Source: Secundilactobacillus hailunensis | GTDB taxonomy: Bacteria > Bacillota > Bacilli > Lactobacillales > Lactobacillaceae | Direction: 5' to 3' | DNA length: 42,420 nt | Assembly: GCF_005405185.1 (NCBI RefSeq) | Contig: NZ_BJDO01000020.1 | Coordinates: forward strand, 1 to 42,420 | Part shown: piece by piece, positions 2,047 through 35,990 of the stretch | Numbering within the stretch: the first letter of the stretch is position 1 | Layout: each line of letters opens with the position of its first letter | Made by a program: the position numbers and the translations under genes | Notes under the pieces: model-generated | The model's input: the letters and a program-made list of their open reading frames with translations, nothing else | Database searches by the model: none | What the model was told of the DNA's origin: nothing

Positions 2047-2072
2047 AAGCTAATGAGAGAAGGAGTGAGTCT

Positions 2073-3653: not shown

Positions 3654-3763
3654 CCGAATTAAATATTAAAGTTTGATTAGCGTATGTATAAATATTATTT
3701 TTACCTTAACAATGGCTTATTTAATGAATATTAATAACTATCATTTCATCAGTTCAAATCATA

Positions 3764-3808: not shown

Positions 3809-3835
3809 GAACTAATAAGAAAGGGAAGCGAGTCT

Positions 3836-5447: not shown

Positions 5448-5456
5448 TCACACATT

Positions 5457-5999: not shown

Positions 6000-6098
6000 G
6001 GATTTCTCTCCTTTACTATCACCAATTCTGACAGTCAATTCTCACCCATAGAATAGAACAATCACCGCCTAATTGAAATAGTAATTCGTCTTTTAGGC

Positions 6099-18528: not shown

Positions 18529-18969
18529 TTACCCGTTAAGTTTGGTAATTTGCTCGAGTACCGCTAAGAAATCAGCTTGGCTCACCCGACCATCCGTCAC
18601 CGTTAAACACTTGCTCAAAGCAGCTTCTTGCGCATCAAGAGCAACTTTAACTTGCGGATACAGCGCCTCACCAGCAGCAGTCAGTTTCAGGACGTATTTA
18701 CGCCCATCGGTTGGCAACTTCTGCTTATCAACCAGCCCCATGTCGGCCAACTTCGCAATTTCTCGGTTAACGTTACTTTGGTGGCGGCTGTCTGCCCGTA
18801 CCAGTTGATCTTGAGTGATACCAGGATCATCGTGCAGCTTTAAAATGAAGAAGAATTGGCTGTTGTTGACACCCAACGGTTTTAAGCGCTTTTCAAGTAC
18901 GCGAATCGCAATGTTAGACGCCGTGTGGAGTTGCTTGCTGATCGTCGCGTCGTTCTTATCTGCAATCAT
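18529..18969 (-). CDS. MarR-family transcriptional regulator 2
   Basis: 146 residues, winged-helix MarR architecture: helix ISKQLHTASNIAIRVLEKRL, recognition region RHQSNVNREIAKLADMGLVDK, wing KLPTDGRKYVLKLTAAGE. It is paralogous to the MarR at 7735-8190 and in the same position behind an amidohydrolase, only 8 bases after its stop and without a clear ribosome binding site, so translation is probably coupled. Candidate operators are the TATGC-N4-GCATA palindromes at 20006-20019 (its own operon) and 15750-15763 (second SDR). Ligand unknown; a phenolic acid is plausible. Confidence 0.92.
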   Translation of the reverse strand: MIADKNDATISKQLHTASNIAIRVLEKRLKPLGVNNSQFFFILKLHDDPGITQDQLVRADSRHQSNVNREIAKLADMGLVDKQKLPTDGRKYVLKLTAAGEALYPQVKVALDAQEAALSKCLTVTDGRVSQADFLAVLEQITKLNG

Positions 18970-18977
18970 CGCAACAT

Positions 18978-19949
18978 CTACAGTTTGAACAGTTTTTCAG
19001 CTGTTCCGTGAGCAATTGCTTCACACTGTTCGTCAGTGATATCGGCTTGTTCCAAGAATTTCCGAACAGTGTCACCGGATTGAACGTAAGGGAAATCTTC
19101 TGACCACATGATGTGATCAGCACCCATTTGGGTCAATACCATCTGCATTTGTGGTGCCGTAAACATTCCCGATGGTGATAGGTAAACCTGACGCTTGTAG
19201 TAGTCGGAGAACTTATGTGGCAGGTCGGTCACGATTGGGCTGAAACCATCGATGCGTTCCAAGAACATTGGGATAAATTCACCCCAATGACCGGTAGCGA
19301 GCTTAACGTTGGGATACTTTTCCAGCAAACCGGCAGTGATGATCCGCATGACTTGAATGCCGGCTTCCATGTGCCAGCCCCACATTGCGCCAGCCATCAT
19401 GTTGGCAGCCATCTTAGAGTAAGACTTGCTGTCGTATAGCATGGCTTTTTGATCATTAGAAATGACACCGGGGTGCAGATAAAGTGTTGTTCCCAACTTA
19501 TCGGCTGCGGCAAAAATGGCTTCAAACTTAGGATCATCTAAGAATTGACCATTGATACTGCCGCTAATAATGCCACCCTTTAGGCCCAGCTTAGTCACTG
19601 CATATTCCAGTTCTTCAGCAGCCTTGTCAGGCACGTTGGCTGGTAAAGTGGCTAATCCAGCAAAACGGTCGGGATATTGGCTGATCTTTTCAGCAAGTGT
19701 TTCGTTTTGCGCGTGGGCACCCGGAACGGCATATTCATCAGGCAGCACCTGTGCGGAATTGCCGGCATCGGAAACGACCTGGAAGTCGATACCATGTTCG
19801 TCCATGTAGGCCACCTTGTTACTAAAATCAACTAAATTGGGTTTGAGTTTATCTTGGTAAGGGTTATTATTCTTAACTTTTGAATACTGCTTAAATTGCT
19901 TAATATTTTCATCTGTATCGTAATGTTCTTCAACTGTAATGAGTTTCAT
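18978..19949 (-). CDS. ACMSD-type amidohydrolase/decarboxylase 2
   Basis: 323 residues, amidohydrolase_2 family. Metal ligands are visible as VEEHY (Glu7, His9), YLHPG (His159) and WSEDFPY (Asp285), with ATGHWGE (His221) in between. Length and motifs match gamma-resorcylate-type non-oxidative decarboxylases and relatives. It is paralogous to the enzyme at 8207-9205 but clearly diverged, so not a recent copy. ATG follows AGGAGG at 8 bases. Together with MarR 2 it forms a two-gene unit headed by a palindromic operator. Substrate unknown; hydroxybenzoates or other aromatic acids are the family expectation. Confidence 0.9.
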   Translation of the reverse strand: MKLITVEEHYDTDENIKQFKQYSKVKNNNPYQDKLKPNLVDFSNKVAYMDEHGIDFQVVSDAGNSAQVLPDEYAVPGAHAQNETLAEKISQYPDRFAGLATLPANVPDKAAEELEYAVTKLGLKGGIISGSINGQFLDDPKFEAIFAAADKLGTTLYLHPGVISNDQKAMLYDSKSYSKMAANMMAGAMWGWHMEAGIQVMRIITAGLLEKYPNVKLATGHWGEFIPMFLERIDGFSPIVTDLPHKFSDYYKRQVYLSPSGMFTAPQMQMVLTQMGADHIMWSEDFPYVQSGDTVRKFLEQADITDEQCEAIAHGTAEKLFKL

Positions 19950-19990
19950 TAATACAACCTCCTGTTAATCATACTTTTTGAACCAAAAAT

Positions 19991-20019
19991 AGTGTAGCAC
20001 ATTTATATGCGCATGCATA
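19991..20019 (-). promoter_or_regulatory. Promoter-operator of the amidohydrolase-MarR unit 2
   Basis: Minus strand: TATGC-ATGC-GCATA palindrome (20019-20006), nine bases, extended -10 TGCTACACT (hexamer 19996-19991). Same spacing and flanks as at 15735-15763; the palindrome overlaps the -35 position. Confidence 0.7.
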
Positions 20020-20111
20020 GTTTATCATCTTCAATATTTCAAATACGCCTTGTTTAAATGGATTTGAAGTAAACTAGAGATATCATTTACGAATGAAAGG
20101 ACTTAGTCGAT

Positions 20112-20663
20112 ATGCTTCAAAGCTCACAAAAACTATTAACTGCTTTAGTCACTTTGCTTGATGACAAACCACTAACTAAAATTACCACCTTAGACTTAAT
20201 CCGTACGGCTGGTATTTCTCGTTCGACCTTCTACCGCCACTTTCAGGATAAATTGCGGTTCTTTGACTGGGTGAAATCCTATTTGCTGGATCTATTTCTC
20301 AAAGATGATTTTAGCGATGACACCCCCGCTTCCTATTACACGCGCTTTTTTCAGCACTTCGCTGACTATCGTCCAGCCTTTAAATCATTTATTTTAGACG
20401 GTCATTGGCAAAATTTTGAACGTGAAATTTTAAAATCCGGTATCAATAACTATTCTCACTTACTTACAAACCACCTTGATGAGAGTGCACCGATCAATAC
20501 GATTGCCGCCTACATCGTTTCAGCTCATATTGGTGTCGTCATTGATTGGCTGACAGAAGATGATGGGCATTCACCGGCTCAAATGGCAGTCATTATAACG
20601 CAGTTCACTAATAGCGTTCTAGCTAACTACGATCTTACACTCGACACCTTGATGACAAAATGA
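20112..20663 (+). CDS. TetR/AcrR-family regulator
   Basis: 183 residues. N-terminal helix-turn-helix ITTLDLIRTAGISRSTFYRHF with the usual TetR pattern, then a helical ligand domain. The C-terminal part (AAYIVSAHIGVVIDWL) resembles the TetR_C domain of DhaS-like regulators. ATG is preceded by GAAAGGA. It is the probable regulator of the dehydrogenase gene 122 bases downstream, but no clear palindrome was found, so the target is open. Confidence 0.88.
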   Translation: MLQSSQKLLTALVTLLDDKPLTKITTLDLIRTAGISRSTFYRHFQDKLRFFDWVKSYLLDLFLKDDFSDDTPASYYTRFFQHFADYRPAFKSFILDGHWQNFEREILKSGINNYSHLLTNHLDESAPINTIAAYIVSAHIGVVIDWLTEDDGHSPAQMAVIITQFTNSVLANYDLTLDTLMTK

Positions 20664-20785
20664 CACAGTTTCGCCAATTCTGACTCTCCCACAGTACGCC
20701 AAATTTTGATAAAATCATTTTAACTTGTGATAGTTTTCTCAAAGGACTAAAACACGCGTAATTTTATTAAAAAGGAGTTTTTTAA

Positions 20786-21679
20786 ATGACAATCCAAAAC
20801 GTAACCGTTGCCGGTGGGGGCGTCCTTGGCAGCCAAATTGCTTATCAAATTGCCTTTAGTGGCTTTGCTGTAACCTTATACGGTCGTCGTGACAGTTCCA
20901 TTCAGGCAGCTAAAAAGCGCATTGAACAGTTGCGCCCTGCTTATCAACATGACTTACAGATCAGCGACGCCCAATTTGATGCCGGCTTAGCCAATATCAC
21001 CTATGAAACGGATTTAAATGCCGCCGTAGCTAAGGCTGATCTAGTAATCGAATCACTTCCTGAAGATCTTACAACCAAGCAAAATTTTTACGAAACTATT
21101 GCGGATGCTGCACCAAAAGCCACGATCTTTGCCAGCAATTCTTCAACCATGCTCCCAAGTCAATTTGCTGAATTCACTGGCCGACCAGCGCAATTTCTCA
21201 ATATGCACTTTGCTAATCACATCTGGGTCATGAACACTGCTGAAATCATGGGAACTAAACAAACAAGTACTGACACTTACCAAACAATAGTGCAATTCGC
21301 TCGTGATATCAAAATGGTGCCCATTGAAATTAAGAAAGAGCAACCGGGCTACGTCCTTAACTCGATGCTCACACCACTGATGGTTGCCGGAATGTCGCTT
21401 TGGGCAAAGGGTGTCGCTGATCCCATGACCATTGATAAAACCTGGATGATTGCTACTGGCGCACCGATGGGCCCGTTTGCGATTATCGATATGATTGGTC
21501 TGCGAACTGCTATCAGTGTGCCTTTGGCTCAGGCAGGCGATGAAGATGGTCAAATTGCTGCAGCCATCACTACCAAGCTTAAAGAACGTCTGGGCGAAAA
21601 TAAGCTAGGTGTCGAATCTGGTGAAGGCTTCTATCACTATCCCAATCCAGAGTTTCAGCAGAAGTCATTTTTAAGCTAA
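20786..21679 (+). CDS. 3-hydroxyacyl-CoA dehydrogenase-like protein
   Basis: 297 residues. N-terminal Rossmann motif VAGGGVLGSQIAYQ (8-21), then VIESLPEDLTTKQ, SNSSTM, catalytic His141 in LNMHFAN and the C-terminal helical domain beginning PGYVLNSML. This is the 3-hydroxyacyl-CoA/3-hydroxybutyryl-CoA dehydrogenase fold, also used by L-gulonate and carnitine dehydrogenases. No thiolase, crotonase or acyl-CoA dehydrogenase is nearby, so a beta-oxidation role is unlikely; a non-CoA hydroxy acid is possible. Arg35 after the second strand (YGRRD) where an acidic residue is usual hints at NADP preference. ATG follows AAGGAG. Monocistronic. Confidence 0.88.
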   Translation: MTIQNVTVAGGGVLGSQIAYQIAFSGFAVTLYGRRDSSIQAAKKRIEQLRPAYQHDLQISDAQFDAGLANITYETDLNAAVAKADLVIESLPEDLTTKQNFYETIADAAPKATIFASNSSTMLPSQFAEFTGRPAQFLNMHFANHIWVMNTAEIMGTKQTSTDTYQTIVQFARDIKMVPIEIKKEQPGYVLNSMLTPLMVAGMSLWAKGVADPMTIDKTWMIATGAPMGPFAIIDMIGLRTAISVPLAQAGDEDGQIAAAITTKLKERLGENKLGVESGEGFYHYPNPEFQQKSFLS

Positions 21680-21696
21680 CTTGATTGATAATTTTC

Positions 21697-21725
21697 GGTA
21701 TTGGCAATCGCTAATACCATTTTTT
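21697..21725 (+). terminator. Terminator of the dehydrogenase gene
   Basis: GGTATTGGC and GCTAATACC pair across a short loop and are followed by ATTTTTTG. Confidence 0.8.
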
Positions 21726-21796
21726 GTCGCCACAATCGTATTGCCGAATCCAGCGATTAACTTTATAATCGGTTTTAAATAGAGGTGTGTCGTGTG

Positions 21797-22207
21797 ATGA
21801 AATTATCAAGAATCATTGGCGTTGTCGTCGTTCTAGCAGCTGCCGTAGCTTTAGTCGTTAAATTAACCAGCTTTGGCCTAGGCTCGCCCCGAAGTCTGCA
21901 AGGCAATTACTTTGCGGAATCGGTGCCCGGCCGTTCCGGTGGCGGAATGCTGATCACCGCTCATTCGATCACCTACACACCATCTGGCTACACGGCATTT
22001 AAAGCAAATAATTTAAAGTGGCATAAGTACGGTAAATATTATCGAGTTCAAGGTCACGTCAATCAAAATTCCTATCACGCCGGCTACAAAGAAGATTATA
22101 TGTATTATCGCCAAGGTAACCAACTAAAAGTTCTCACTTACGGTCAATACAAACATAATCGGAGCTTTAAGGGTGTCACCCCATTTAAATTAGTCCATCA
22201 ACGCTAA
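21797..22207 (+). CDS. Small membrane-anchored or secreted protein, unknown function
   Basis: 136 residues. One N-terminal hydrophobic segment (about 5-22, IIGVVVVLAAAVALVV) after MKLSR, with no lipobox Cys, so a signal anchor or uncleaved signal. The rest is extracellular, Gly/Ser/Tyr/His/Lys-rich and basic, probably a small beta-rich domain (SLQGNYFAESVPG, then YYRVQGHVNQNSYHAGY). I do not recognise the family. Start taken as ATG 21797 behind AGAGGTG; an upstream GTG (21785) overlaps the ribosome binding site. Between two terminators, so its own unit. Confidence 0.8.
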   Translation: MKLSRIIGVVVVLAAAVALVVKLTSFGLGSPRSLQGNYFAESVPGRSGGGMLITAHSITYTPSGYTAFKANNLKWHKYGKYYRVQGHVNQNSYHAGYKEDYMYYRQGNQLKVLTYGQYKHNRSFKGVTPFKLVHQR

Positions 22208-22243
22208 AAAGCATCCAACTCAATTTTGAGCTGAATGCTTTTT
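22206..22243. terminator. Bidirectional terminator between the small membrane protein and the NmrA-like gene
   Basis: AAAAAGCAT and CAACTCA pair with TGAGCTG and ATGCTTTTT. Located between convergent stops. Confidence 0.85.
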
Positions 22244-22260
22244 GATTAGCTAAATTTCAG

Positions 22261-23124
22261 TTATTTCTCGGTATAATTACGCTTTAAGAAACTCGTCATA
22301 TCTTCTGGTTTATGTCCAGTAATGGTCTCAAAATCACTCGTTGCGTGACTGAATAAGCCCATTGCGCCGGCAGCGTACATGCTGGCCAGTTCTTCGCCAT
22401 CGCCTTCAGGTGCATAGATCTGACCGAACTCTTTCAAGGTTACTGGTTCATAGCCAATCTCATGACCAGTAACTGCGGTCATGATTTTGCCAAGTTCTGG
22501 CATGGTGAGACTCTTCTCCTGCGTAACCGTATACGTCTGACCTGCGCCCCGTAAATCAACACGGGCAGCCAAGGACGCAATGGCTTCAGCACTATCGTCA
22601 TATGAAATGAAGCTCATGGCTTGCTTGCCAACCGGATAAATCAGGTGCTTGCGTTCAATCAGTTCTGGTAAATATGGCACTAACGGATCAGCGTACAACG
22701 AATTCTTGATCACCGCATAGTGCAGACCACTGCCCGCTAATTTCCGTGGTGCGTACCCATAATATGGTGACATCTGGAACGGATTGTTTTCTTGATCAGC
22801 AAAGAAGCTCACGAAAATCATGTTTTCGACTTTAGCAGCCTTCAGCGCCTCGATTGAATTCTCGAATTCAGTAATCCGTTGCAAAACACTGTAGGTTCGG
22901 CTTGGAATATAAATGACAATGTCTTGGCCGGTGAAGGCTTTGGTCATCGTGTCAACATTCAGATAATCACTGGTAACGACATTAACCCCTTGAGCTTTCA
23001 GATCAGTTGCTTTAGCGGGCGTGTGAACCGCTGCCGTGAGTGATTCAACACCCACCATCTTGATCAAATCCTGCATAACTCTGCTACCAAGGTTGCCGGT
23101 TGCACCGGTCAGTAAGTATTTCAT
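22261..23124 (-). CDS. NmrA-like atypical SDR, NAD(P)H:quinone oxidoreductase QorB/YtfG type
   Basis: 287 residues. Rossmann motif LLTGATGNLGSRVMQDL at the N-terminus, atypical SDR layout (VVTSDYLNVDTM, then IFVSFFADQ and the IKNSLYADPL loop) typical of NmrA/QorB-type quinone reductases. The usual SDR Tyr-Lys pair is not obvious, as in NmrA sensors. ATG is preceded by GGAG. A 14-bp-arm inverted repeat lies 27 bases upstream (23151-23195). Either an NAD(P)H-dependent reductase or a redox sensor; substrate unknown. Confidence 0.88.
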   Translation of the reverse strand: MKYLLTGATGNLGSRVMQDLIKMVGVESLTAAVHTPAKATDLKAQGVNVVTSDYLNVDTMTKAFTGQDIVIYIPSRTYSVLQRITEFENSIEALKAAKVENMIFVSFFADQENNPFQMSPYYGYAPRKLAGSGLHYAVIKNSLYADPLVPYLPELIERKHLIYPVGKQAMSFISYDDSAEAIASLAARVDLRGAGQTYTVTQEKSLTMPELGKIMTAVTGHEIGYEPVTLKEFGQIYAPEGDGEELASMYAAGAMGLFSHATSDFETITGHKPEDMTSFLKRNYTEK

Positions 23125-23150
23125 TAGATAAGTCTCCTTTAAATGGTTAC

Positions 23151-23195
23151 GTGTCTTAGTGGCATTTCAATATTTGCTGAGTGCCACCGAGACAC
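23151..23195. promoter_or_regulatory. Long inverted repeat upstream of the NmrA-like gene
   Basis: GTGTCTTAGTGGCA (23151-23164) and TGCCACCGAGACAC (23182-23195) pair at 12 of 14 positions around a 17-base centre. It sits in the leader or promoter of the NmrA-like gene. No T-run follows on either strand, so an operator or leader structure is more likely than a terminator. Confidence 0.45.
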
Positions 23196-23314
23196 ATCGA
23201 TAATATTAAGTCGTCTGTTACTTTATAAACAACTTGTCGTATTAATCTTACCATTTATCAGGATATTCGCCAGTCTTTTTGGGAAGAACCTGGATATTGA
23301 ATATGCTTTAAATC

Positions 23315-23974
23315 TCAGGCTTCTGGCATTAAAGTCAGTAACCCAAAGTTGAAATTTTTGCTGCTGGCCATTCCGTTCAACGTCATTTTTTCAAATGCCA
23401 GCAAGTCTTTAACCACTAAATCACCTGCAAAGGTCACACGACTAGCCTCGCTATGGCCATTTTGCTGCCGCCCTAAAATTGGTCGATTGGAGCTGGCAAC
23501 GTCAGATACATAAGCATTTTCGTCATTGTTAGAGAGGACCGAAATCTGTCTCAGAATCTGAAAACCGTTCTTGGTTTGCTGATTAAGCAGCCATTCCCGC
23601 TGCTCTGCAACGATTACTTGTGGATCTAACTTCTCGCTTGCTTCACCAGTGCGTGGCGGATTAGCGGTAATCCGGAATCTGATGGGTTGATCTGCCAGTA
23701 AAGAATCCAGCAAATGCTCGTTTGCTTTAGAAGCTAACCCGGTTGACATGCTGGTTGGTCCCACCTTCACACCCTTTGGCGCAACTTCGCTCAGCATATA
23801 TAGGTACCAGTGCTTGTTCATCCGCTCGAATTGCCAGTAGTGCTCCCGCGGAACTGATGGTTGCAGTTCTCCGGGCAAAACGTGTCTATCCCAGTTGTGA
23901 GAAGGTTCTACGGTGGTATACTCTTGGATTTGTTGTAGCTTTTTGTCGGTGATTTTAATTCTTGATAGAAACAT
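23315..23974 (-). CDS. Solitary Cas6e (CasE)-like CRISPR RNA endonuclease homologue
   Basis: 219 residues, the length of type I-E Cas6e. Begins MFLSRIKI as in the family (MYLS). The catalytic-helix region PSHNWDRHVLP carries His26 in the HNW context of lactobacillus Cas6e. FRITANP (100-106) matches the FRxxANP strand, EQREWLL (124-130) the linker, and SRVTFAGDLVVKD plus GMASSKNFNFGLL the C-terminal RAMP domain. The glycine-rich loop is eroded: expected G-x-G-x(5)-G-x-G reads GMASSKNFNFG. AGGAG precedes the ATG, so it has its own translation start. No cas3, cse1, cse2, cas7, cas5, cas1, cas2 or repeat array is visible. It is either a relic of a lost type I-E locus or a repurposed RNA-binding or cleaving protein. 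Confidence 0.85.
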   Translation of the reverse strand: MFLSRIKITDKKLQQIQEYTTVEPSHNWDRHVLPGELQPSVPREHYWQFERMNKHWYLYMLSEVAPKGVKVGPTSMSTGLASKANEHLLDSLLADQPIRFRITANPPRTGEASEKLDPQVIVAEQREWLLNQQTKNGFQILRQISVLSNNDENAYVSDVASSNRPILGRQQNGHSEASRVTFAGDLVVKDLLAFEKMTLNGMASSKNFNFGLLTLMPEA

Positions 23975-24250
23975 TTTTCTCTCCTACTTGAAATGATATT
24001 CTTTATGCTATTAACGGTATAGTAAAACCAATATTAAATTAGTTTGTTTGGTCTGAGGTCTAAACAAGAAAGAGAGGTAATCTGATAGATTTCCTCCCCT
24101 TTAATTATCTAGAAAATTTTGTTAGCAATGGTTTTAGAAACGCTTTGAAACGTGACCATTCAGATAAATATAATAGCATTCGCCGAGTACTGTGACCGTT
24201 ACTATGATACGTCCCCATTACTAATCCATACAAAATAACGACCATGAACG
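23975..24250. other. Non-coding stretch between cas6e-like gene and IS element
   Basis: No gene is seen. It holds the cas6e-like ribosome binding site (near 23980), a partly palindromic block TTGTTTGGTCTGAGGTCTAA followed by ACAA (about 24045-24068), and a hairpin GAGGTAATCT-GAT-AGATTTCCTC (24074-24096). No CRISPR repeats and no cas5 remnant could be found here. Confidence 0.5.
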
Positions 24251-24256
24251 TAATTA
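24251..24256. repeat. Probable target-site duplication, left copy (TAATTA)
   Basis: TAATTA directly abuts the left end of the IS and recurs at 25311-25316 directly after the right end. Its own palindromy slightly weakens the case. Confidence 0.6.
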
Positions 24257-25310
24257 ACGCGTAGTGCTAGTTTCGTAATATAGCTCAGGTAATTCACTAA
24301 TCTATTCTAAGCCCACTTTTTCCTTGAATTAAATTGCTATGAACCTTGATGACATTCCATAAAAACAGGGCCGCTAATCGGCTACCCAAGCCGATTAGCG
24401 TTCGAGTTCTGGGATGCTCAAAATGGCCAACGATGTTTAGATTATTAAAACCAGTTTCAATATGCCGCCGCTGATTTTTCAAAAATGCAGAATTAACCTG
24501 TCCTGACTTTCGCATGTTCTTTCGTAGTGGAAACCAGAAGTTGATCTCTTGCGATTTTAACCGCTTTTGAAGGGTTCGACTTAGGTATCCGCCATCTGCT
24601 AAGACTTGATGAGCAGGAGCTTCTCGTAAAAGTTCTTCGACGGATTTTCGATCGTCAATATTTGCTGGTGTTAGTTCCCAGCTCACAAAATAGCCAGCGT
24701 TGTCCATCACCGCATGCAGTTTGAAACCATAATAATATAGCTGCTTAGTGGCGTTATAACCCTTACAAGCTATCGCGCGTAAAACTTTCGCTTGGTTACT
24801 ACGTCTGGCTGAGACTAGAGTGATTGGAGCACTATCAATGATTTCATAAGTACAATCATGCCGATATCGCTTCAATAAATACTGACGAATCATCTTCATT
24901 ATTTGAAACAGATTACGGCATCTACGATTGTAGCGACTCCGTTCGGGAACAACTATTCCGGAAGCCATCAAAATGTGATGGAAGTGCGTTTCCGAGGGAT
25001 CACGTAAATCTATGCGGGCAAGCATACAAGCAATAATCGTGATGTCACTGACTTTCAATTGCCGGTAATTTTGACGCAAACGAAAATGTTTTGGCAACAG
25101 TTGGTAAATTGGTGTAACTATTTTGACGAATTTTCGAACAGTAGCTTGAATTAAATTGGTTTTTGGGATAGTTTTAAGGTGGCCTTGCATTTACGGTTCT
25201 TCTTTCTGGTTTAGTCACCTTAGAAGCTACCGCAAATGCGGGCTTTTTGCATATAATTTGCTTTACTCAATGAGTTACTCGACGAATGTTACAAAACTAA
25301 CACTACACGT
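24257..25310 (-). mobile_element. Complete IS982-family insertion sequence, 1054 bp
   Basis: Left end begins ACGCGTAGTGCTAGTTTCGT (24257) and the right end, read inward on the minus strand from 25310, begins ACGTGTAGTGTTAGTTTTGT. The terminal repeats match at 21 of 25 positions, all four mismatches being C/T transitions. Both sides are flanked by TAATTA (24251-24256 and 25311-25316), a probable 6-bp target duplication, though TAATTA is itself palindromic. The element holds a single full transposase on the minus strand. Ends beginning AC and a length near 1 kb fit IS982. Confidence 0.88.
24297..25190 (-). CDS. IS982-family transposase
   Basis: 297 residues, full length for the family. IS982 signatures are RYNRRCRNL in the N-terminal third, first catalytic Asp in YEIIDSAPITL, then GYNATKQLYYYGFKLHAV, second Asp in VLADGGYL and the Glu in RRHIETGFNNL. 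All three DDE residues are present and the frame is intact, so it may be active. The only gene of the IS element; about 120 bases separate its start from the right terminal repeat. Confidence 0.93.
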   Translation of the reverse strand: MQGHLKTIPKTNLIQATVRKFVKIVTPIYQLLPKHFRLRQNYRQLKVSDITIIACMLARIDLRDPSETHFHHILMASGIVVPERSRYNRRCRNLFQIMKMIRQYLLKRYRHDCTYEIIDSAPITLVSARRSNQAKVLRAIACKGYNATKQLYYYGFKLHAVMDNAGYFVSWELTPANIDDRKSVEELLREAPAHQVLADGGYLSRTLQKRLKSQEINFWFPLRKNMRKSGQVNSAFLKNQRRHIETGFNNLNIVGHFEHPRTRTLIGLGSRLAALFLWNVIKVHSNLIQGKSGLRID

Positions 25311-25316
25311 TAATTA
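25311..25316. repeat. Probable target-site duplication, right copy (TAATTA)
   Basis: Matches the six bases left of the element exactly. Confidence 0.6.
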
Positions 25317-25490
25317 TCTGTATTTACGAATCACAGCTCTTTCTGCATAATGATAATTATAAATCCAAACACTAGTCTTTGCAGTTGTGGGGCTACTGAC
25401 CGATATTTCCGATAATTTACTGCAGTGAAATCAGCTGTATTTGATTACAACGCCAGATTATCCTCAAAATTTTTCTAATAAGTAATTATT

Positions 25491-26268
25491 TTACCGTCTT
25501 TGCTTAATGATTTGTTGTATAAGGTCATTGATTGATATTAAAGGATTTGGATAATATTGGTCACTTCTTAATTTTTTTATATTTAGCAACCAGCCTTTTG
25601 AAGTCCCTAATTTTGCACTTACTTTTTCTAAATTCGCATTCGTTTTTTTTAAAATTGCATTTTGAATTAGTTTACGTAATTTATTGCGTTCCAAAAAGAT
25701 AGGTTCGTTATCATCAATATTCTTAGAATACGCATACCATTTTGTATTATCCCTTTTTTTTGAGACCACTATCTACAAATTCATGATTGCCTGGATTTGA
25801 TTTTTCTTCTGTTTCAATATATAAATTTCCAGTACGAGCAGATCTTTTATCAAGCTTGACTTCAAGTCCCATAGCGCTTTCTCCACGATACTGATCATCC
25901 AAATTACCATATAATCCCATGGAGACCGAATCTTTTTGCAATAAATCACTTATATAAATCTCGCATCGATGTGATTCAATCAAATTTTTCTATCCAATAA
26001 TCACCTTTATCTCGGAACCTATCTTGAAATATGATGGGTAAGCACACTTCATAATTTCTTTTATTTCCTAAAGTACTAGCCTCTGTTTTATTCTTAGTAC
26101 TATTAATAAATTTTTCCAAATCACGTCTATTTTCAGAACTCTTAATAAATACATTGTAATCAGTTACTAGCTGCTCATTTATATAAAAATTTTCAAAATC
26201 AATGGTTCCCTGTTTATTTAACATATTATTTTTATTATCTGAAAAAAGAAAGTAAAAATATAAGACAA
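25491..26268 (-). pseudogene. Frameshifted gene for a PD-(D/E)XK-like nuclease, downstream of the type III R-M pair
   Basis: Three consecutive minus-strand frames (to 25976, 25983-25747, 25769-25491) read as parts of one protein of about 250 residues. The middle part has ESAMGLEVKLDKRSARTGNL followed by YIETEE, the E-x-K plus TGN-IE pattern of a restriction-endonuclease-like core. The breaks fall in homopolymers: A5 near 25985 and A8 at 25752-25759; removing one A at each joins the frames (IEN-LIESHR, SGLKK-RDNTKW). At the 5' end AAGGAG (26275-26280) leads to a TTG at 26268 whose frame also breaks in a T6 run before MLNKQG. Either decayed, phase variable, or assembly error. AT-rich like the R-M genes upstream. 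Function unproven. Confidence 0.6.
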
Positions 26269-26344
26269 TTGTATCTCCTTTAGTTGGATTTTTTTAAGCG
26301 ATAGGGTCTGAATCTTATACGACATTATTATTTACCTCTATCTT

Positions 26345-28966
26345 TCACTTACCTGATGGTTTAATTGTCATTAATTCCTGCCCAATATTTTCACCATCTC
26401 CGTTCGTAAAAAATTTTAGGCCATAAAGCTTAACGTGGTCATTTTCACCAATAACTTCAATGTTCTCAGGACGAATGCTTTCTAACAAATCTTGCTTCCA
26501 GTGATCCCTATCAAGTAGTTGGGGACCCTTTGGTTCTATATAGATTTGGTAACAAAAGTCCTTATTTTGTAAATAAAGAATGAAATCAGGCATAAATCCT
26601 TCATAATGGCTTATTTGTCCCTTAAACTGATGCAGTTTAAAATTAGTGTTTTGTTCATCATTTCTAAACAAATAAATATATTCATATTTTTCTTGTAATC
26701 TGTTAATAAAATCACCAATAAAATCAATTGCTGACTTCTCTAATCCATCTACAATTGCTTCGTCAAAAACGTACCAAGGCTTATTCTCCATGGGATAAGG
26801 CAAAATTCTTTCACTAATTGGCTTATTAAAGCTCTTTGATACTTTTTTTTGATAATCTTTAATCAAGGATTTTGTTGGCACTGGAATAAACCGATTAGTT
26901 CCACGCTTACGTTGATAATTATTAATAATTTGCTTTTGAACAAAGGTCAAATACTGTTCTACCGCTTTAAGTTGTTGTTCACGATTTAATTCTGGTGAAT
27001 CATTGGCAACTCTAGCATATAATCTAATTTTGCCCAACCAATTATCAGATAAAATGAATTCGTTTAGTGATTTTAAAGTCGGAACATACTGATGTAAAGA
27101 ATTAAAACGATAAAATTTATTGCGCGAAAAAGCTTTTTTTACTAACGATAAGTTATCGCGAAAATTAAATAAGAATCTAGTTTCTGTTAATACATCTTTT
27201 TCAGTAACCTTCGCGTTATAACTAGTTTCCCAAGTACTATCTACTAAATTAACTTCCGCTATCGTTTCTGTATTAATTCCATATCGATCTATCCCATTAA
27301 ATTCTTTATCCGGAATTGATTCAATTTCATTAAAATAAATTTTACCTTGTTGATACACTTTAGATTTCTTAAAAGTGGATTTAACGTTAGCTTCGTAGAC
27401 ATCAAAATCACTATCATCTTCAACCGGAAGATTTAATTTATCCAGTGATTTCTTTAGATTTTCAAGATATTTGGGGTCGTTTATCGTGTGATAATAAATA
27501 CTTTCTAATAATTGATATTTTGTATTCTGTCCGTCAAATCGTCTTGTATAAGAAATTTTTCCCTGATATACAAATGGATAGTACCGCGCACCACGACCAA
27601 TTAATTGAGCTTCACTGTTTGTTTGATTCAGAGTCGTAGGCTGTTCACCAATTCGTACGATATCATAAAGATTTAATACATCCCAACCTTCACTTAGTTT
27701 AGCTACCGCAAAAATGACTCGAAAAGGATTGTCATTATTCTCTAAAGTATTCAAATTGTGTAAATCATTTAAATCTCCCAGAATTCCCTCTTTGGCACTA
27801 TCGTTAACGTTAATAGTATTCAAAGCTTGAAAATCATGTTTTAATTCAACAATTGCAGTTGCTAAATCTTGGGATAGCCAATAGACATAGGCTTGTTTAA
27901 GCGCTTGGCTATGACTAATCTTCTGTTGATACTTAAGAAATTTAGTTAAATCAGTTACATTTAAATGATCAATTAGGTCTAAAAAATTCTTCCTGGCTTC
28001 TTTAGAAATAGCAATCTTATTTGATTTAAATAAAATTACTGGTTTAAAATCAGGAATATTCAAACTTTGTGCAATTCTTTTACGATATTGACTTAATAAA
28101 ACGACATTCATCATCTTATCTTTATCATCATTGTTTGCCTGTAACCGATAAACCCGTTTAGAATAACCTTCATAGATAAATTGACTTAAATCATAACGAT
28201 AAACGATTTTTTCACGATATTTTTGATAAATATCTTCATTTTGTAAATCAAGTGTCGCTGTAAACTCAAATTGACGATTTTTTTTATTACATTGTCGAAT
28301 TCGGTCTAAAATGTTTTCCCAAGAACGATCTTTCTGATCTTGTTTACTTTTAGTTCCAGCACTAAAATGATGTGCTTCGTCAGCTAAAACTATTAATTTC
28401 TGTTTTGTAAAATCATTATAAGTTAACCCGTTCTCCCTAACTGTGCTTAATTCATTAGCCAAAGTCTGGATAGTAGTTAATCGCAAATAAATTACACCTA
28501 ACTCCGGATTTTGAGAAAATTGGGTCACTGGACGAATTTCAATTTTCTGCCCATGAATGTTTATTGGCTGAGAAAATAGATATTTAGACGAATCAATTTT
28601 TAGCAAGTTATCGTAAGTTTTAGCAACAACTGCATTTGTGTTTACTACAAATAAAAAATTATGATAAGAAAACTCGGTATATAAATATAGAATCATTGCA
28701 GCCAACACATCTGTTTTTCCACTGCCAGTGGCCATATCAAATAATAATTGATTATATTGGTAATCTGCTGATGCTTGGTGTTGAGTCCAATCTAAATTAA
28801 CTAACGCTTGTTCCTGATATGGTCGCAATTGATGCTTTAAATTATTCTTAATATATCCTGGAATAATAAAAGGTTCCTCATCACTGAGAAGATCTATTTT
28901 TTGTTTATTCTCTAGCAAATCAACCAATGGTAGCTCAATTTCACGCAAAACTCTCTTTTTGGGCAC
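26345..28966 (-). CDS. res: Type III restriction-modification system, Res (helicase-nuclease) subunit
   Basis: 873 residues. Superfamily 2 helicase motifs: Walker A DMATGSGKT (77-85), DEAHH (196-200), SAT-like FTATLD, and LSEGWDVLNLYDIVRIGEQP with downstream QLIGRGARYYPF. A C-terminal PD-(D/E)XK nuclease follows: MPDF (Asp794) and IEPKG (Glu811, Lys813). This is the complete Res layout, acting with Mod to translocate and cut unmodified DNA between head-to-head sites. GTG start behind AAGGAG at 8 bases, five bases after the mod stop, so mod-res is an operon with coupled translation. AT-rich compared with flanking core genes, which suggests horizontal acquisition. Confidence 0.95.
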   Translation of the reverse strand: MPKKRVLREIELPLVDLLENKQKIDLLSDEEPFIIPGYIKNNLKHQLRPYQEQALVNLDWTQHQASADYQYNQLLFDMATGSGKTDVLAAMILYLYTEFSYHNFLFVVNTNAVVAKTYDNLLKIDSSKYLFSQPINIHGQKIEIRPVTQFSQNPELGVIYLRLTTIQTLANELSTVRENGLTYNDFTKQKLIVLADEAHHFSAGTKSKQDQKDRSWENILDRIRQCNKKNRQFEFTATLDLQNEDIYQKYREKIVYRYDLSQFIYEGYSKRVYRLQANNDDKDKMMNVVLLSQYRKRIAQSLNIPDFKPVILFKSNKIAISKEARKNFLDLIDHLNVTDLTKFLKYQQKISHSQALKQAYVYWLSQDLATAIVELKHDFQALNTINVNDSAKEGILGDLNDLHNLNTLENNDNPFRVIFAVAKLSEGWDVLNLYDIVRIGEQPTTLNQTNSEAQLIGRGARYYPFVYQGKISYTRRFDGQNTKYQLLESIYYHTINDPKYLENLKKSLDKLNLPVEDDSDFDVYEANVKSTFKKSKVYQQGKIYFNEIESIPDKEFNGIDRYGINTETIAEVNLVDSTWETSYNAKVTEKDVLTETRFLFNFRDNLSLVKKAFSRNKFYRFNSLHQYVPTLKSLNEFILSDNWLGKIRLYARVANDSPELNREQQLKAVEQYLTFVQKQIINNYQRKRGTNRFIPVPTKSLIKDYQKKVSKSFNKPISERILPYPMENKPWYVFDEAIVDGLEKSAIDFIGDFINRLQEKYEYIYLFRNDEQNTNFKLHQFKGQISHYEGFMPDFILYLQNKDFCYQIYIEPKGPQLLDRDHWKQDLLESIRPENIEVIGENDHVKLYGLKFFTNGDGENIGQELMTIKPSGK

Positions 28967-28971
28967 AAGTA

Positions 28972-30951
28972 TTACTCCTTCTTCTCATAAAAACTTTTAT
29001 TAAAATGATAGTCACTATCAGTGATTAAGTCACGAACATTCTTATCTTCGATATTAGCTTCATTGTAATAAAGCTGATTTTTATCAAGTAATTTAACCAG
29101 TAACTTTCTCTGTTCTTTAAAAGTTAAGGATTTTCGCTCAGAATCATTTTCATACTTATCTAAATCTACCCTGAAGTCAAAATCAGCACCGGATTTCATA
29201 CGTTGATAAACGGAGTCTAAATCAGTTATATTTTTTGTAGATAAAAGGTCTTTTAGATACCCCTGGTTCTTTTCCATCAGTTCAGCATAAACAAATGAGC
29301 CTCCTCCATGCCAGTCAACGTCTTCAGATATACCGCCTTGTTCACCTGAAATAACCTTTTGAAGGCGAGAAACTGAAACCGTATTAATATAGTCCATTTG
29401 TTCAATACCTATAAATTGGCGATGCATTTTCATAGCTACTGCTTGAGTTGTTGCAGATCCCATGAAGAAATCCATAATTAAATCACCTTTGGAAGAAAAT
29501 ATATCTAAATATTTTTTTATTAATTCTTCAGGCTTTTTCCCATTTCTGAATGAAACCTCCCCTTCCTCATTAACTTGGTTGTATTCTTTTACCAAATCTA
29601 AAAAATTAGCATATGGTTTTAAGGTAACGCTAGAACTCATTGGCATTCCTTGATAATAAGCACCATTTTTTATAGTGCTATTTTTAGGCAATTCAAAGAA
29701 ACGATATCCTAAACCATCATCTCCCATATTAGGAACTTTAAAAATAGTTCTGTCTGGATACTTTTTTCTTAACTTTTCAATATAAGCAACATAAAACCGA
29801 CCACTAGAATTTTTTTCTCTAATAGAACCCCGAATGGTTTCACGATGCAAATTTTCCACAGCTGGCGTTGTCTTCATTATTTTGGTATGCTCCGGTAAAT
29901 ATACTTCCACTTTTTTACCACCGAGATTAATAACTTCATCAGGTTTACTAAATACTTGTACGGTGTGGTCATACTTATCAACTGTTTTTTTCACAGCCTT
30001 TCTAGGCATTTCAAAAGAATTGCTCTTAGAATAAATCAATGTATATTCCATTACATCATTAAATGGCTTATCAGCAGTCAGCGCTCGATCAGGATGCCGA
30101 ACAAGAACATTCATATCGAATATATGCCGTGTTTTGTTAAAAATATTGTCAAGAAGCACTCTTAAATATGGATATTGATGAAAACTAGTCTGAACGAGGA
30201 GAATAACATCATCCGATAATAACTCTTTAGAAATATCTACTCGATTTTTTACAAAAGTAAGCCACGCACTTCTGCTAAATGAATCATTATAACTAAAAGA
30301 GTCTGAACCCGTATTATATGGTGGGTCTAGGTAAATAAGTTTAATTTTCCCTGCATATCTTTGCTTTAAACTATGCAAAGCAATTAAATTATTTCCTTTA
30401 ATAATTAAATTATCCTGATCATCAAAATTAAATGTTTTATGCTCACCATCTTGATCATATTTTTTAACATTTTTAAACACTTTGGGCTCTAATAACTCAT
30501 CAATTTCAGATTTACCAATTATTTCATTCAAAAACGGTTCATCAGCTGTTTCATCATTTTTCAAATCTTCTTTACTCATTCCAGCTTTTAAAACAGTGTC
30601 TTTAAATGGAAAATCTAAGACAACATCTGCAGATTCGTCAATAAATTTTCCACCTGCAGTTAAACCTATCTTGTTTGTGTATTTGGTGTAACTATCTTCC
30701 CAAAATTCTTTATATTCAAACATTTCAACAAATTGGTTAAGTTTAAACACTTTAGTATCCGCAATTTTTTCAACATAATTTTTGCGAATTAAAGGATTTT
30801 CAAATAGTTTTTCCATTAAATCATGATCAAATTTATCTAAATCACTAATTACTTTAACTCTCTTAAGAGTACCATTGGTAGTTATATATTTATTATCGAA
30901 TTCTCTTAAGATACTTTTCACTTGAGACATTATCTTAGGTTCAATTTTCAT
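28972..30951 (-). CDS. mod: Type III restriction-modification system, Mod (N6-adenine methyltransferase) subunit
   Basis: 659 residues, beta-class amino-methyltransferase order: catalytic motif IV LIYLDPPYNTGSDSF (about 206-220), the variable target-recognition region in the middle, then the SAM-binding motif DFFMGSATTQAVAMKM near residue 490 and IGIEQMDYI. GSATT in place of GSGTT is common among Mod proteins. The position normally reading FISIDDNE is LLVQTSFHQYPYL, a divergent variant. Start is ATG 30951 behind GAGGTG at 6 bases; the GTG nine bases upstream is part of that site. Mod gives the specificity of the complex; the recognition sequence cannot be predicted by eye. No simple-sequence tract for phase variation was seen in the gene. 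Confidence 0.95.
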   Translation of the reverse strand: MKIEPKIMSQVKSILREFDNKYITTNGTLKRVKVISDLDKFDHDLMEKLFENPLIRKNYVEKIADTKVFKLNQFVEMFEYKEFWEDSYTKYTNKIGLTAGGKFIDESADVVLDFPFKDTVLKAGMSKEDLKNDETADEPFLNEIIGKSEIDELLEPKVFKNVKKYDQDGEHKTFNFDDQDNLIIKGNNLIALHSLKQRYAGKIKLIYLDPPYNTGSDSFSYNDSFSRSAWLTFVKNRVDISKELLSDDVILLVQTSFHQYPYLRVLLDNIFNKTRHIFDMNVLVRHPDRALTADKPFNDVMEYTLIYSKSNSFEMPRKAVKKTVDKYDHTVQVFSKPDEVINLGGKKVEVYLPEHTKIMKTTPAVENLHRETIRGSIREKNSSGRFYVAYIEKLRKKYPDRTIFKVPNMGDDGLGYRFFELPKNSTIKNGAYYQGMPMSSSVTLKPYANFLDLVKEYNQVNEEGEVSFRNGKKPEELIKKYLDIFSSKGDLIMDFFMGSATTQAVAMKMHRQFIGIEQMDYINTVSVSRLQKVISGEQGGISEDVDWHGGGSFVYAELMEKNQGYLKDLLSTKNITDLDSVYQRMKSGADFDFRVDLDKYENDSERKSLTFKEQRKLLVKLLDKNQLYYNEANIEDKNVRDLITDSDYHFNKSFYEKKE

Positions 30952-31489
30952 TTTTTTCACCTCAAAAAATATTTTTCTTTATATTTCAGCCCAAGTTAAA
31001 TGATTTTGACCTATTCATTGTATGTAATCGTCTAAGTTAAACTATCAATACAATAATACTTTTTTGTTAGAGTAATTTAATATTCAGAGCACCTTCATGA
31101 TGCAGAGTCTAGACAATATTTTAAATTGGATTTTATCATTTTTTAAATATGAACCATAATTTAACTTTAACCTACAACAAATAAGTATTTCAACAGTTTA
31201 TTGAAAAAATATGAATTAATGTTAATAAATATACCTAAAATAATAAAATGGTAATTGAATTATTCTTGTACTTCCATTTGAAAATATCTAAAGCAATATT
31301 TTACATAAAAACTGTCAAAATTTATCACATTGTTTTCGAAAACCTGTACTATATATATATCTGACCAGTTAGCAACGATAACATTCATTTAAATTGTTAA
31401 CTATTCTCTCCCATTTGACCGAAAACGGTTTCTGTGATAGATTAGAAAATAGTTAGAAAATAGGTCAATAATAAATCAACGATAAGAAG
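30952..31489. other. AT-rich intergenic region between mod and the metA leader
   Basis: About 540 bases, very AT-rich, no gene seen. It must contain the mod promoter (minus) and the metA promoter (plus), and probably the right boundary of the acquired restriction island. No tRNA or clear direct repeat was recognised at the boundary. Confidence 0.5.
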
Positions 31490-31721
31490 AGTAATCATAA
31501 TACCTAGAGAAAGAGAGTTCTGGCATTGCTGAAACAGGACCGGATGGCATGACGAAGATGAACTTGGAGACTGACGGGGTCGTGAAGGCTACCGCCACGG
31601 GGCACCGATATCTGCTGAGTATTCGTACTCTTGAGGCAGTAGTTGTGAGACTACTGCAAAGATGGGTGGTACCGCGTAAAAAACGTCCCTAGCTGTTAAA
31701 TATAGCTAAGGACGTTTTTGT
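31490..31721 (+). promoter_or_regulatory. T-box leader (probably methionine-responsive) with terminator, upstream of metA
   Basis: The antiterminator signature GGGTGGTACCGCG (about 31665-31677) is followed by the terminator hairpin AAAACGTCCCTAGC ... GCTAAGGACGTTTTT ending at 31719. Upstream are the K-turn-like AGAGAAAGAGAG (about 31506-31517), a stem-III-like hairpin GCAGTAGT...ACTACTGC (about 31638-31659) and a candidate specifier codon ATG followed by A at 31558-31560. Uncharged tRNA, expected to be Met-tRNA given metA, would allow readthrough. The T-box is certain; the specifier is inferred. Confidence 0.9.
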
Positions 31722-31747
31722 ATTCTATTCAAAGGAGGGCATGACAT

Positions 31748-33338: not shown

Positions 33339-34232
33339 GTGGAAAAACAATTTTGTGTCAAATGTGGTAAGGAGTTACCTAACGAAGCTGAATTTTGTCC
33401 GTACTGTGGCCTCAAGCAACCAGTCTTAAAAAAAGGATCTGTAACACCCGAGAAACAATACGAACGACCAACCGAAGTATTTTATCCTCAAAACAATGAC
33501 ACAAAGATAAATCAAAACGAAACTGGTGCGAAGAACATCGTTACACCTTCTTCTGAAACACCCAAAAAAGAATTTCATAATGAATTTAAACCTTACATTC
33601 CGAAAAAAGTCAAGCCTAAAAAGCCATGGTATAAACATGGACTGGCAATAGTTCTAGTTGCCGCACTCTTTCTTTTTGCCTTCGTATTAGCAAAAGATGC
33701 TATTAATGGTTCTAGTTCCACCACTGAAGCTGCGGGATCGTATGATAACAGCAATTCTAATGATTCAACTTCAGACGATTCAAGTTCTGACGATACAGAA
33801 GATTCGGATGATGACTCAGATTATGAAGATGAGGATTCAGACGATGACGACACTGGTGACTTTACTAATGACTCCGTTGCGGGCATTTCAGCTTCGGATT
33901 ATGATGCTACAGAAGCAGCCGGAAATACTTACTCGTATGGTGAACTGCTTAAATCAGACGATTACAATGGGGAATCATATAACATTACAAATGCCGAAGT
34001 CCTTCAAGCTGACGAAAACGACGGTGCAACTACTTTACTTGTGTATACGGATGAATACGTAGATGAAGTGTTCAAAATCTATTACCCTGATACCACTGAC
34101 GCTGTCAAAGACGACTACGTGACTGTAAAAGGTGTATTAGGCGATCGAGAAGAGTATGATACCCAAGCTGGTGGATCAAATACTGTACCTACAATTGTTG
34201 CTCAAGATGTCAGTATAACTGGCTCTGAATAA
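33339..34232 (+). CDS. Zinc-ribbon membrane protein with acidic linker and C-terminal OB-like domain
   Basis: 297 residues. Residues 1-24: zinc ribbon with Cys6, Cys9, Cys20 and Cys23 (CVKCG, CPYCG). 25-98: hydrophilic, lysine-rich at the end (PKKVKPKKPWYKHG). About 100-117: one transmembrane segment (LAIVLVAALFLFAFVLA). About 125-180: Ser/Asp/Glu low-complexity stretch, extremely acidic. About 195-297: a beta-rich domain (YGELLKSDDYNGESYNITNA, then VKDDYVTVKGVLGD) resembling tRNA_anti/OB-like domains of surface proteins. The ribbon would be cytoplasmic and the C-terminus outside. GTG start behind GAAGGGG. Common as an uncharacterised type in lactobacilli; function not known. Confidence 0.85.
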   Translation: MEKQFCVKCGKELPNEAEFCPYCGLKQPVLKKGSVTPEKQYERPTEVFYPQNNDTKINQNETGAKNIVTPSSETPKKEFHNEFKPYIPKKVKPKKPWYKHGLAIVLVAALFLFAFVLAKDAINGSSSTTEAAGSYDNSNSNDSTSDDSSSDDTEDSDDDSDYEDEDSDDDDTGDFTNDSVAGISASDYDATEAAGNTYSYGELLKSDDYNGESYNITNAEVLQADENDGATTLLVYTDEYVDEVFKIYYPDTTDAVKDDYVTVKGVLGDREEYDTQAGGSNTVPTIVAQDVSITGSE

Positions 34233-34324
34233 ATAACATATATTCATGACATTTTTTATTTTACAAATTAAGAAAAGTTTTGGATATCTCACAAATTACC
34301 AGAACTTTTTACATCATTCCACAA

Positions 34325-34356
34325 AAAAGGAATCCTGAATTCTCAGGATTCCTTTT
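34325..34356. terminator. Bidirectional terminator between the zinc-ribbon gene and guaA
   Basis: AAAAGGAATCCTGA and TCAGGATTCCTTTT form a perfect 14-bp stem with a 4-base loop; A and T tracts serve both strands. Confidence 0.9.
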
Positions 34357-34390
34357 AGTCTAATCTGATTCAATTTACCGAGCAGGAATC

Positions 34391-35941
34391 CTATTCCCAC
34401 TCCACCGTCGACGGCGGCTTGCTCGTAACATCATACACAATCCGGTTTACATGCTTAACTTCATTTACGATTCTAGTAGAAACCTTCGCCAGTACATTAT
34501 ATGGAATGTGCGCAAAGTCTGCGGTCATCCCATCGATAGAGGTTACGGCCCGGATACCGACTGTGTAGTCGTAAGTCCGGCCATCACCCATAACGCCGAC
34601 AGAACGGAAACCTGGTAAGACAGTAAAGTATTGCCAGATGTCGCGGTCTAAGCCGGCTTTTTTGATTTCATCCCGAAGAATGTAATCACTGTCGCGGACG
34701 ATTTCCAATTTTTCAGGCGTAATTTCACCGAGAACACGGATTCCTAGACCAGGGCCTGGGAATGGTTGACGCCAAACGAGGTCGGCAGGCATGCCGAGTT
34801 TCTCACCCAATTCACGGGCTTCATCCTTGAATAAGGTCCGCAATGGTTCGATCAACTGGAAGTGCATGTCCTTTGGCAGGCCACCAACGTTATGGTGCGA
34901 CTTGATGGTTTGTGCCGTATCAGTCCCAGATTCAACCACGTCGGTATACAGCGTCCCTTGTGCTAAGAAGTCGATACCATTCAGCTTTTTGGCTTCATCG
35001 TTAAAGACTTGGATGAACTCGTTACCGATGATTTTCCGCTTCTTTTCAGGGTCACTGACACCCTTCAGCTTGGACAAGAACCGGTCAGCAGCGTTAACTT
35101 CAACGATGTTCAGACCAAATTTACCCTTCAAACTGTTCATCACTTGGGATGCTTCGTTCTTTCGCAGCAGACCGTGGTCCACGAAGATGGAGGTCAGCTG
35201 GTTCCCGATAGCCTTGTGTAACAGCACACCAACAACGGATGAATCTACCCCGCCAGAAAGACCTAATAACACTTTCTTATTACCAACAGTTTTGCGAATA
35301 TGTGCGATCTGCAGATCAATGAAGTCATCCATTGACCAGTTCGCTTCAGCGTGGCACACGTCAAAGGCGAAGTGCTTCAGAATTTCGTTACCGTAATCCG
35401 TGTTACGAACTTCAGCATGGAACTGAATGCCATAGAAGTTACGATCCGTATCCTGCATAGCAGAAATTGGACAGTCACGACTGGTGGCAACATCCGTAAA
35501 GCCTTCAGGCACTTTGGTTACTAAGTCACCATGACTCATCCACACATTTTGTTCCTTAGGCGTGTTGGCAAATAACTTGGCGTCATCGCTGGTCACTGTG
35601 ATGGCTGCCCGACCGTATTGGCCGTTATCAGACTTCACTTGACCGCCAAGTGTGTAAGCCATTAACTGCATTCCGTAACAAATTCCCAGAATGGGGATCC
35701 CTAACTTGAAGATCTCAGGGTCGACTCGTAATGCATCCTCAGCGTAAACACTGTTGGGACCACCAGAGAAGATGATACCCTTGGGATTAAGAGCCTTAAC
35801 CTCGTCTGCCGTGATCGTGTGGGCCATCAATTCAGAATAGACACCCATGTCACGGATCCGACGGGTAATGAGCTGATTGTACTGTGAACCGAAGTCCAGC
35901 ACAATGATCTTATCAAAGGACGATAAATCCACCTTTGCCAA
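34391..35941 (-). CDS. guaA: GMP synthase (glutamine-hydrolysing)
   Basis: 516 residues. N-terminal class I glutaminase: [20 protein letters not shown], catalytic Cys88 in GICYGMQ and His in FHAEV. Then the ATP pyrophosphatase P-loop [11 protein letters not shown] and the C-terminal dimerisation domain ending KPPSTVEWE. It converts XMP, ATP and glutamine to GMP. Start taken as TTG 35941 ([11 protein letters not shown]), 6 bases after AAAGGTGTG and in line with family N-termini; the GTG nine bases upstream overlaps the ribosome binding site and an ATG in between is out of frame. Monocistronic, with its own promoter and PurBox. Confidence 0.97.
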
Positions 35942-35990
35942 TCCATTCACACCTTTCTTATATCAAACAGGGTTTGAAACCATTAGTTAC

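Follow-up and report, generated by a model that had tools for sequence, protein, structure and literature searches.

Cas6 enzymes are usually regarded as parts of CRISPR systems. That a member of a Cas family can be kept outside CRISPR–cas loci is known from solo-Cas4 ('Phylogenomics of Cas4 family nucleases', PMC5704561, in the portion of that paper drawn on here), which belongs to another protein family and often stands outside such loci, whereas the solitary Cas6e form described below was found in two species. Likewise, the isolated cas loci surveyed by Zhang and Ye (2017, PMC5294841) lie away from a CRISPR array, as the present gene does, and are read in the sections of the survey considered here as remnants or as acting together with remote arrays; the survey takes in loci with three or more cas genes, whereas here a single diverged gene is concerned, and the word 'cas6' is absent from its main text. 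Wording of the 'solitary' or 'stand-alone' type occurs in PMC8866350, where the passages concerned apply it to ordinary Cas6, and within the portion of the open-licence PMC literature covered we found no description of a stand-alone Cas6e-derived gene of this kind. For Cas6e itself (that is, Cse3 or CasE, the type I-E endoribonuclease), the relevant passages of one study report that in Escherichia coli the substitution H20A abolishes cutting, and that Cascade was obtained in poor yield once cas6e had been deleted, a result interpreted there as a stabilising effect of Cas6e on crRNA within Cascade (PMC4499155).

A Cas6e homologue outside any cas operon

Within the window (that is, the whole stretch of 42,420 nt of Secundilactobacillus hailunensis DNA that was analysed), one gene resembles Cas6e (Table 1). 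Judged from its sequence, this solitary gene is real, intact and homologous to Cas6e: the protein matches the Pfam family CRISPR_assoc (PF08798) over residues 1–217 of 219 (E 4.7e-27; 96.1 bits against a cut-off of 25), which rules out chance similarity, and it is also matched by the Cas6e and Cas6 models of PADLOC, although its score against NCBIfam TIGR01907 (casE_Cse3; E 1.9e-10, 41.5 bits) lies below the equivalog cut-off of 45.2. A search with the single sequence returned no solved structure at E 0.01, and a profile built from 14 Cas6e rows, one of them the solitary protein, retrieved eight distinct sequences, all of them Cse3/CasE entries. The sequence AGGAGAG, which ends 4 nt ahead of the start codon, recurs in front of the orthologue in Secundilactobacillus silagei (see below). 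The features that the original prediction had read from the letters (an undamaged frame with its own strong ribosome-binding site, the MFLS start, HNW with His26, FRITANP and the loop GMASSKNFNFG) were all confirmed.

The same prediction had stated that the 42 kb hold neither another cas gene nor an array, and the searches bear this out: with eight I-E Cas proteins, tblastn at E 1e-5 found the solitary gene only, four II-A proteins had no match in the window, and no CRISPR-like repeat family was found there. When the I-E search of the window was relaxed to E 5, short fragments only were returned (best E 0.037). We also considered whether the gene is what remains of a more extensive cas cluster in the window and rejected this, given that no other I-E or II-A cas gene is present there.

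Table 1 Features of the window in and around the solitary Cas6e-derived gene
Feature	Position	Strand	Remarks
Block colinear with S. silagei	18538..23998		88.5% nucleotide identity; solitary gene and its downstream neighbours
NmrA-like/NAD(P)-binding gene (nmrA)	22261..23124	(-)	Conserved downstream neighbour; 96% amino acid identity in S. silagei
Solitary Cas6e-derived gene	23315..23974	(-)	219 aa, ATG start, open reading frame intact
Ribosome-binding site and last upstream bases common to S. silagei	23975..23998	(-)	blastn match ends at 23998
IS-like element	24251..25316	(-)	DDE transposase 24297-25190 between 46-nt inverted repeats, 78% complementary
Type III restriction-modification pair	26345..30960	(-)	res 26345-28966, mod 28972-30960
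Zinc-ribbon-like gene and gap before guaA-like gene	33339..34391		Site of the I-E operon stretch in congener G010

Besides the solitary gene, the colinear block contains nmrA, a small open reading frame and genes that resemble 3-hydroxyacyl-CoA dehydrogenase, tetR, amidohydrolase and marR genes; a family search was run for nmrA alone among these, and the other names come from a reading of the sequence. Further along, the zinc-ribbon-like and guaA-like genes are direct neighbours (33339-35950). Rfam models at their gathering thresholds had no match in the window, and a scan for G+C-rich hairpins (perfect 6-bp stems with at least five G/C and loops of 3–6) found none in window positions 22001-26500 or in S. 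silagei L018 4001-10000. Against shuffled sequences, promoter-like sites (10 versus 8.2 ± 3.1) and terminator-like sites (3 versus 2.6 ± 1.9) showed no excess in the window region. Elsewhere in the window (1991-5181), direct repeats spaced by about 1763 bp reach 74–88% identity in the reported pieces, and a unit about the size of a gene has apparently been duplicated in tandem.

Comparison with canonical Cas6e proteins

The solitary protein resembles Cas6e in whole-length homology, in length, in the position of His26, in the FRxxANP region and in the position of motif V. We compared it with 73 other Lactobacillaceae Cas6e, of which 72 adjoin cas5 or cas7 and one (L097) adjoins an array only; the two pieces of a split cas6e (L014 and L017) and a broken copy from G410 (L134) were left out of the alignment and the trees, and L004 was replaced in the alignment by the copy in L019. 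The catalytic His26 is kept, its column being histidine in 73 of 73 comparison sequences and standing opposite His26 of the Thermus thermophilus Cse3 chain 1wj9 in the profile of 14 rows.

Apart from standing outside any Cascade operon and below the equivalog cut-off, the protein differs from Cas6e in much that is otherwise nearly fixed. It keeps 29 of the 53 near-invariant columns (conserved at 95%) and has lost 24, and in a leave-one-out count among the 73 Cas6e the most deviant sequence loses 13 of 58 and the next 5 of 57. Among the 18 conserved basic columns (lysine or arginine in at least 80%), which we infer to contact RNA, six are kept and 12 lost, the lowest of the comparison sequences keeping 12. 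Net charge is 0 (pI 7.0), compared with a mean of +8.5 (pI 9.64) and a minimum of +1 (8.0) in the others. The motif V loop, which according to the relevant passage of PMC3727216 often fits G-phi-G-X5-G-phi-G, reads G-M-A-SSKNF-N-F-G, with two of the usual four glycines replaced and the lysine kept; the original prediction's statement that this glycine-rich loop is altered by the loss of two glycines thus proved correct, and GMASSKNFNFG is identical in the S. silagei orthologue. Judging from these residues, the lost positive charge speaks against strong binding to any RNA, and a role without RNA cutting is also allowed. Because defining features of Cas6e were tested and found wanting, the solitary protein is not to be filed as a functional Cas6e, though by descent it is plainly a member of the family.

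AlphaFold2 models of the solitary protein are of low confidence (mean pLDDT 36.9 with two alignment rows and 52.5 with six). With such a low-confidence model, the 28 best Foldseek matches are all Cas6e/Cse3 or Cascade entries (query TM 0.30–0.38); because ordinary Cas6e rows are part of the six-row alignment, this supports the fold weakly and does not address the surface.

Relationship to the I-E Cas6e of a congener

The best full-length match to the solitary protein is the I-E Cas6e of congener G010 (L005/L022), at 38–39% identity, followed by others at 34–35% or less; a 125-residue piece of the split cas6e of G002 also reaches 38%. The solitary protein and the G010 Cas6e have 14 rare residues (that is, residues found in less than 10% of the other sequences) in common, compared with 7 for the next best sequence and a median of 2. 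In a 75-row LG+G4 tree the two are grouped with a bootstrap of 98, with approximately 3.2 changes per site between them, and a mixture-model tree made by a quick method from 45 of the 75 rows gives the same grouping, with 17.8% SH-aLRT and a saturated path of 10.4 changes per site. The chromosomal neighbourhood is likewise the same: in G010 an I-E operon and other genes stand between the guaA-like and zinc-ribbon-like genes, and the operon ends approximately 12 kb from the G010 nmrA (77% amino acid identity), where cas6e and nmrA are oriented towards each other just as they are in the window. Unlike the solitary gene, the G010 cas6e lies in a cas3-cas8e-cas11-cas7-cas5-cas6e-cas1-cas2 operon with an array, and its product has the full four-glycine loop. 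On these comparisons, we consider an origin of the solitary gene from a G010-type I-E Cas6e likely, and call it no more than that because of the mixture-model support of 17.8% and the saturated path.

An orthologue under selection in S. silagei

A contig scan that finds close relatives only found one orthologue, in S. silagei JCM 19001 (95% amino acid identity), with identical His26 and GMASSKNFNFG, the same downstream genes and the same place beside nmrA. Between the two copies there are 11 nonsynonymous and 47 synonymous differences (binomial p 2e-21), and none of the 11 replacements falls at His26 or in the loop. The dN/dS ratio of 0.066 (NG86) or 0.134 (YN00) lies within the range of six neighbouring genes (0.015–0.090 and 0.016–0.211, respectively). 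The solitary gene is under clear purifying selection since the two species parted, and the original impression that it is not obviously decaying holds, with frame and ribosome-binding site intact in both species; dN/dS would not yet reveal a function lost very recently. Taken with the divergence from Cas6e described above, the pattern suggests rapid change at first and constraint afterwards. It also bears on the view that the gene is a functionless relic of a lost I-E operon. In its favour, the gene lacks I-E cas neighbours, has outlasted what else its presumed parent operon contained and has changed at many near-invariant positions, but the strong purifying selection and the intact frame and ribosome-binding site make this view very doubtful.

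Upstream, the two species part company. The blastn match between them ends 24 bp before the start codon, and forced alignment further upstream is not convincing. Where the window has its IS element and type III restriction genes, S. silagei has a type II-A CRISPR–Cas9 locus composed of cas9 (1365 aa), cas1, cas2, csn2 and an array of 26 exact and two degenerate repeats. The original suggestion of a relic beside a restriction island is not supported: the transposase and the restriction-modification proteins of the window had no match in the S. silagei stretches compared (L018-L021, L136), and the II-A locus takes that position there. The downstream genes are the same in the second species, and the upstream neighbours differ. 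As window positions 31407-32187 match the far side of the S. silagei II-A region, both contents occupy one variable stretch. Near the II-A locus, L019 1322-3076 of S. silagei encodes a Schlafen group 3 helicase domain and a GIY-YIG domain, a possible further defence gene in this hotspot.

The II-A array lies on the same strand as the S. silagei solitary gene, and its last degenerate repeat ends 63 bp before it. This raises the idea that the gene is an accessory of the II-A locus, co-transcribed with the array, and no terminator-like site was found between the two. Promoter-like sites (5 versus 10.5 ± 3.8) and terminator-like sites (0 versus 3.1 ± 2.0) showed no excess over shuffles in the S. 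silagei region, and a weak promoter-like site (9 of 12) lies just before the gene (L019 12675-12704). We nevertheless give this idea almost no credence, given that S. hailunensis has the gene although neither Cas9 nor a II-A array was found there, that the conserved block lies on the nmrA side, and that G014 and G006 (other genomes of the genus with strong Cas9 matches) have no Cas6e match.

In S. silagei, too, the gene has no I-E cas neighbour in L019, and the species' own I-E operon lies approximately 20 kb further on, between two arrays of the same repeat (L020 9848-11190 with 23 exact copies and L021 2378-3700 with 22).

CRISPR systems elsewhere in the genome

When the search for I-E genes was widened to the whole S. 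hailunensis genome, the absence noted in the window stood, but a complete I-E operon with arrays was found on other contigs. Contig C51 contains cas3, cas8e, cas11, cas7, cas5, cas6e, cas1 and cas2 (named by their order and their likeness to other operons) and an array of 43 repeats, the last of them about 110 bp from the contig end. The Cas6e of this operon is intact and 32% identical to the solitary protein. From cas7 to cas2, where the two were compared, the operon is 94.9–99.7% identical by piece at the amino acid level to that of G002 (L014/L017, G002:C78), in which cas6e is split in two frames and the solitary gene is absent; being nearly identical, the C51 operon probably arrived recently by transfer. 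No Cas9 match was found in S. hailunensis and, in a search made without a positive-control genome, no II-A array match.

In all, the genome has 72 I-E repeats: 43 on C51, 21 on C77 and eight of a second variant on C12. The C12 repeats are those of S. silagei, and the sequences to either side of them correspond to the two borders of the I-E locus in that species. They form operon-less array remnants (L147, 278-365 and 2823-3200) of two and six exact repeats and one more degenerate copy, separated by approximately 2.5 kb with other open reading frames, and the first 14 kb of C12 yielded no cas gene. Given these repeats and flanks without cas genes, an S. silagei-type I-E operon has apparently been lost there. 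From the gene order of S. silagei we infer that C12 adjoins the left edge of the window in S. hailunensis, which would put it approximately 23 kb from the solitary gene. S. hailunensis thus carries the solitary gene without an S. silagei-type I-E operon and without any II-A system found. Spacers cut between exact repeats (42 from C51, 42 from the S. silagei I-E arrays and 25 from the II-A array) were compared with the window and the other loci, their own loci being left out, and recovered the II-A array again in L068 only.

These arrays bear on a further role, also raised in the original prediction, in which the solitary protein is an accessory Cas6e acting in trans: it would still process the I-E repeats of distant arrays and so serve as a back-up. 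The 72 repeats all lie outside the window, eight of them in the two C12 remnants that have no operon, and His26 and the motif V lysine are kept. Even so, a back-up function seems distinctly improbable, for the operon on C51 already supplies an intact Cas6e, two-thirds of the conserved basic positions (12 of 18) are gone, and G002, whose near-identical operon has the split cas6e, does without the solitary gene.

The I-E operon present in both carriers is also relevant to a role without cutting, in which the protein would be a partner that binds to Cascade, to another RAMP protein or to the host's I-E Cas6e and tunes or blocks the I-E system. The loss of net charge and basic positions while core columns stay agrees with such a role, as does the position of the gene at the end of the II-A array in S. 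silagei; His26, however, is kept in both species and would be needless for a purely structural function, and we consider this partner role unlikely.

Distribution of the solitary form

The solitary form was found in 2 of 15 genomes of the genus (its own included), with a match of any kind in six of the 15, and a search of the family gave a match in 73 of 397 genomes. Across the 77 loci examined for neighbours, cas5 or cas7 is present in the fetched stretch of 75. The two without either are the solitary gene of S. silagei and, in G254, a cas6e of canonical type that adjoins an I-E array. At the level of the order (395 genomes, E 1e-20), 18 genomes matched, and the 19 places found are the solitary gene and 18 loci of the family search. 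With two species only in the searches made, 'conserved' rests on one comparison.

The G254 case (L097/L137) is a minimal cas6e–array locus: L137 (G254:C22) encodes at 5370-6023 (-) a Cas6e with the canonical loop, without Cascade genes and beside an array of 37 copies of one repeat, and a full I-E operon (L138) lies elsewhere in that genome. We rejected it as a second case of the solitary form on account of its canonical loop and adjoining I-E array.

Carriage by phages or plasmids was rejected for lack of evidence. Among 50,697 phage records, tblastn at E 1e-5 gave no match, and among 72,556 plasmid records it gave 10, all at less than 60% identity; in nine of these a cas6e is annotated under the match, and the remaining one (Nocardia farcinica) has no annotation there. 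Viral contigs scanned with the solitary protein alone gave none, and a scan with the family alignment gave five loci, all with other cas-like genes nearby (cas7 and cas5 in L142, L143, L145 and L146; cas3- and cas1-like matches in L144). On the last of these IMG/VR contigs (L144, 1842-2366), a Cas6e-like protein of 174 aa, corresponding to the later part only, is encoded between the cas3-like and cas1-like genes.

Proposed evolution of the solitary gene

Given that the gene stands apart from a CRISPR operon and encodes a protein with a reduced positive surface, yet is kept intact by selection, the data suggest a changed job. At about an even chance, we propose that it was formerly an I-E Cas6e that changed quickly and then became a stand-alone protein under constraint, with an altered specificity for RNA or for a partner. 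In this scenario, the gene would have arisen as a stand-alone paralogue from an I-E operon Cas6e of the kind that G010 still carries nearby, and the rest of the parent operon would have disappeared from the site in the window. The left-over Cas6e may then have diverged quickly, losing most conserved basic positions and the two motif V glycines while the core residues and the catalytic histidine were kept, and the ordinary purifying selection observed in the S. silagei lineage would have followed. The solitary protein would no longer perform standard processing of I-E repeats and may instead bind, and perhaps cut, a different structured RNA, or act together with a partner protein; the original suggestion of an RNA endonuclease turned to another RNA would fit this scenario. 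By analogy with the E. coli enzyme, either crRNA cutting or crRNA stabilising could be the activity that was taken over.

As both carriers hold a complete I-E system, the protein may have a supporting role in that system or depend on it. A tentative and unlikely elaboration is that the protein is a Cas6e released from its CRISPR system and rebuilt as a stand-alone regulator, acting on a non-CRISPR RNA or linking the I-E system with other defence systems of the hotspot; for example, it may compete with the resident Cas6e for Cascade or for Cascade RNA.

In summary, the gene is a real and mildly surprising object: in two related species, a derivative of Cas6e stands alone, has been altered and is under constraint. 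If the proposed scenario is true, it would clearly exemplify a Cas protein taken over for another job, having outlived its operon, changed its surface and been held by selection, and it would pose a small and defined question, namely which RNA or partner the solitary protein holds. The gene also marks a site in the chromosome at which systems of the I-E, II-A and restriction kinds swap between close species while the solitary gene stays.
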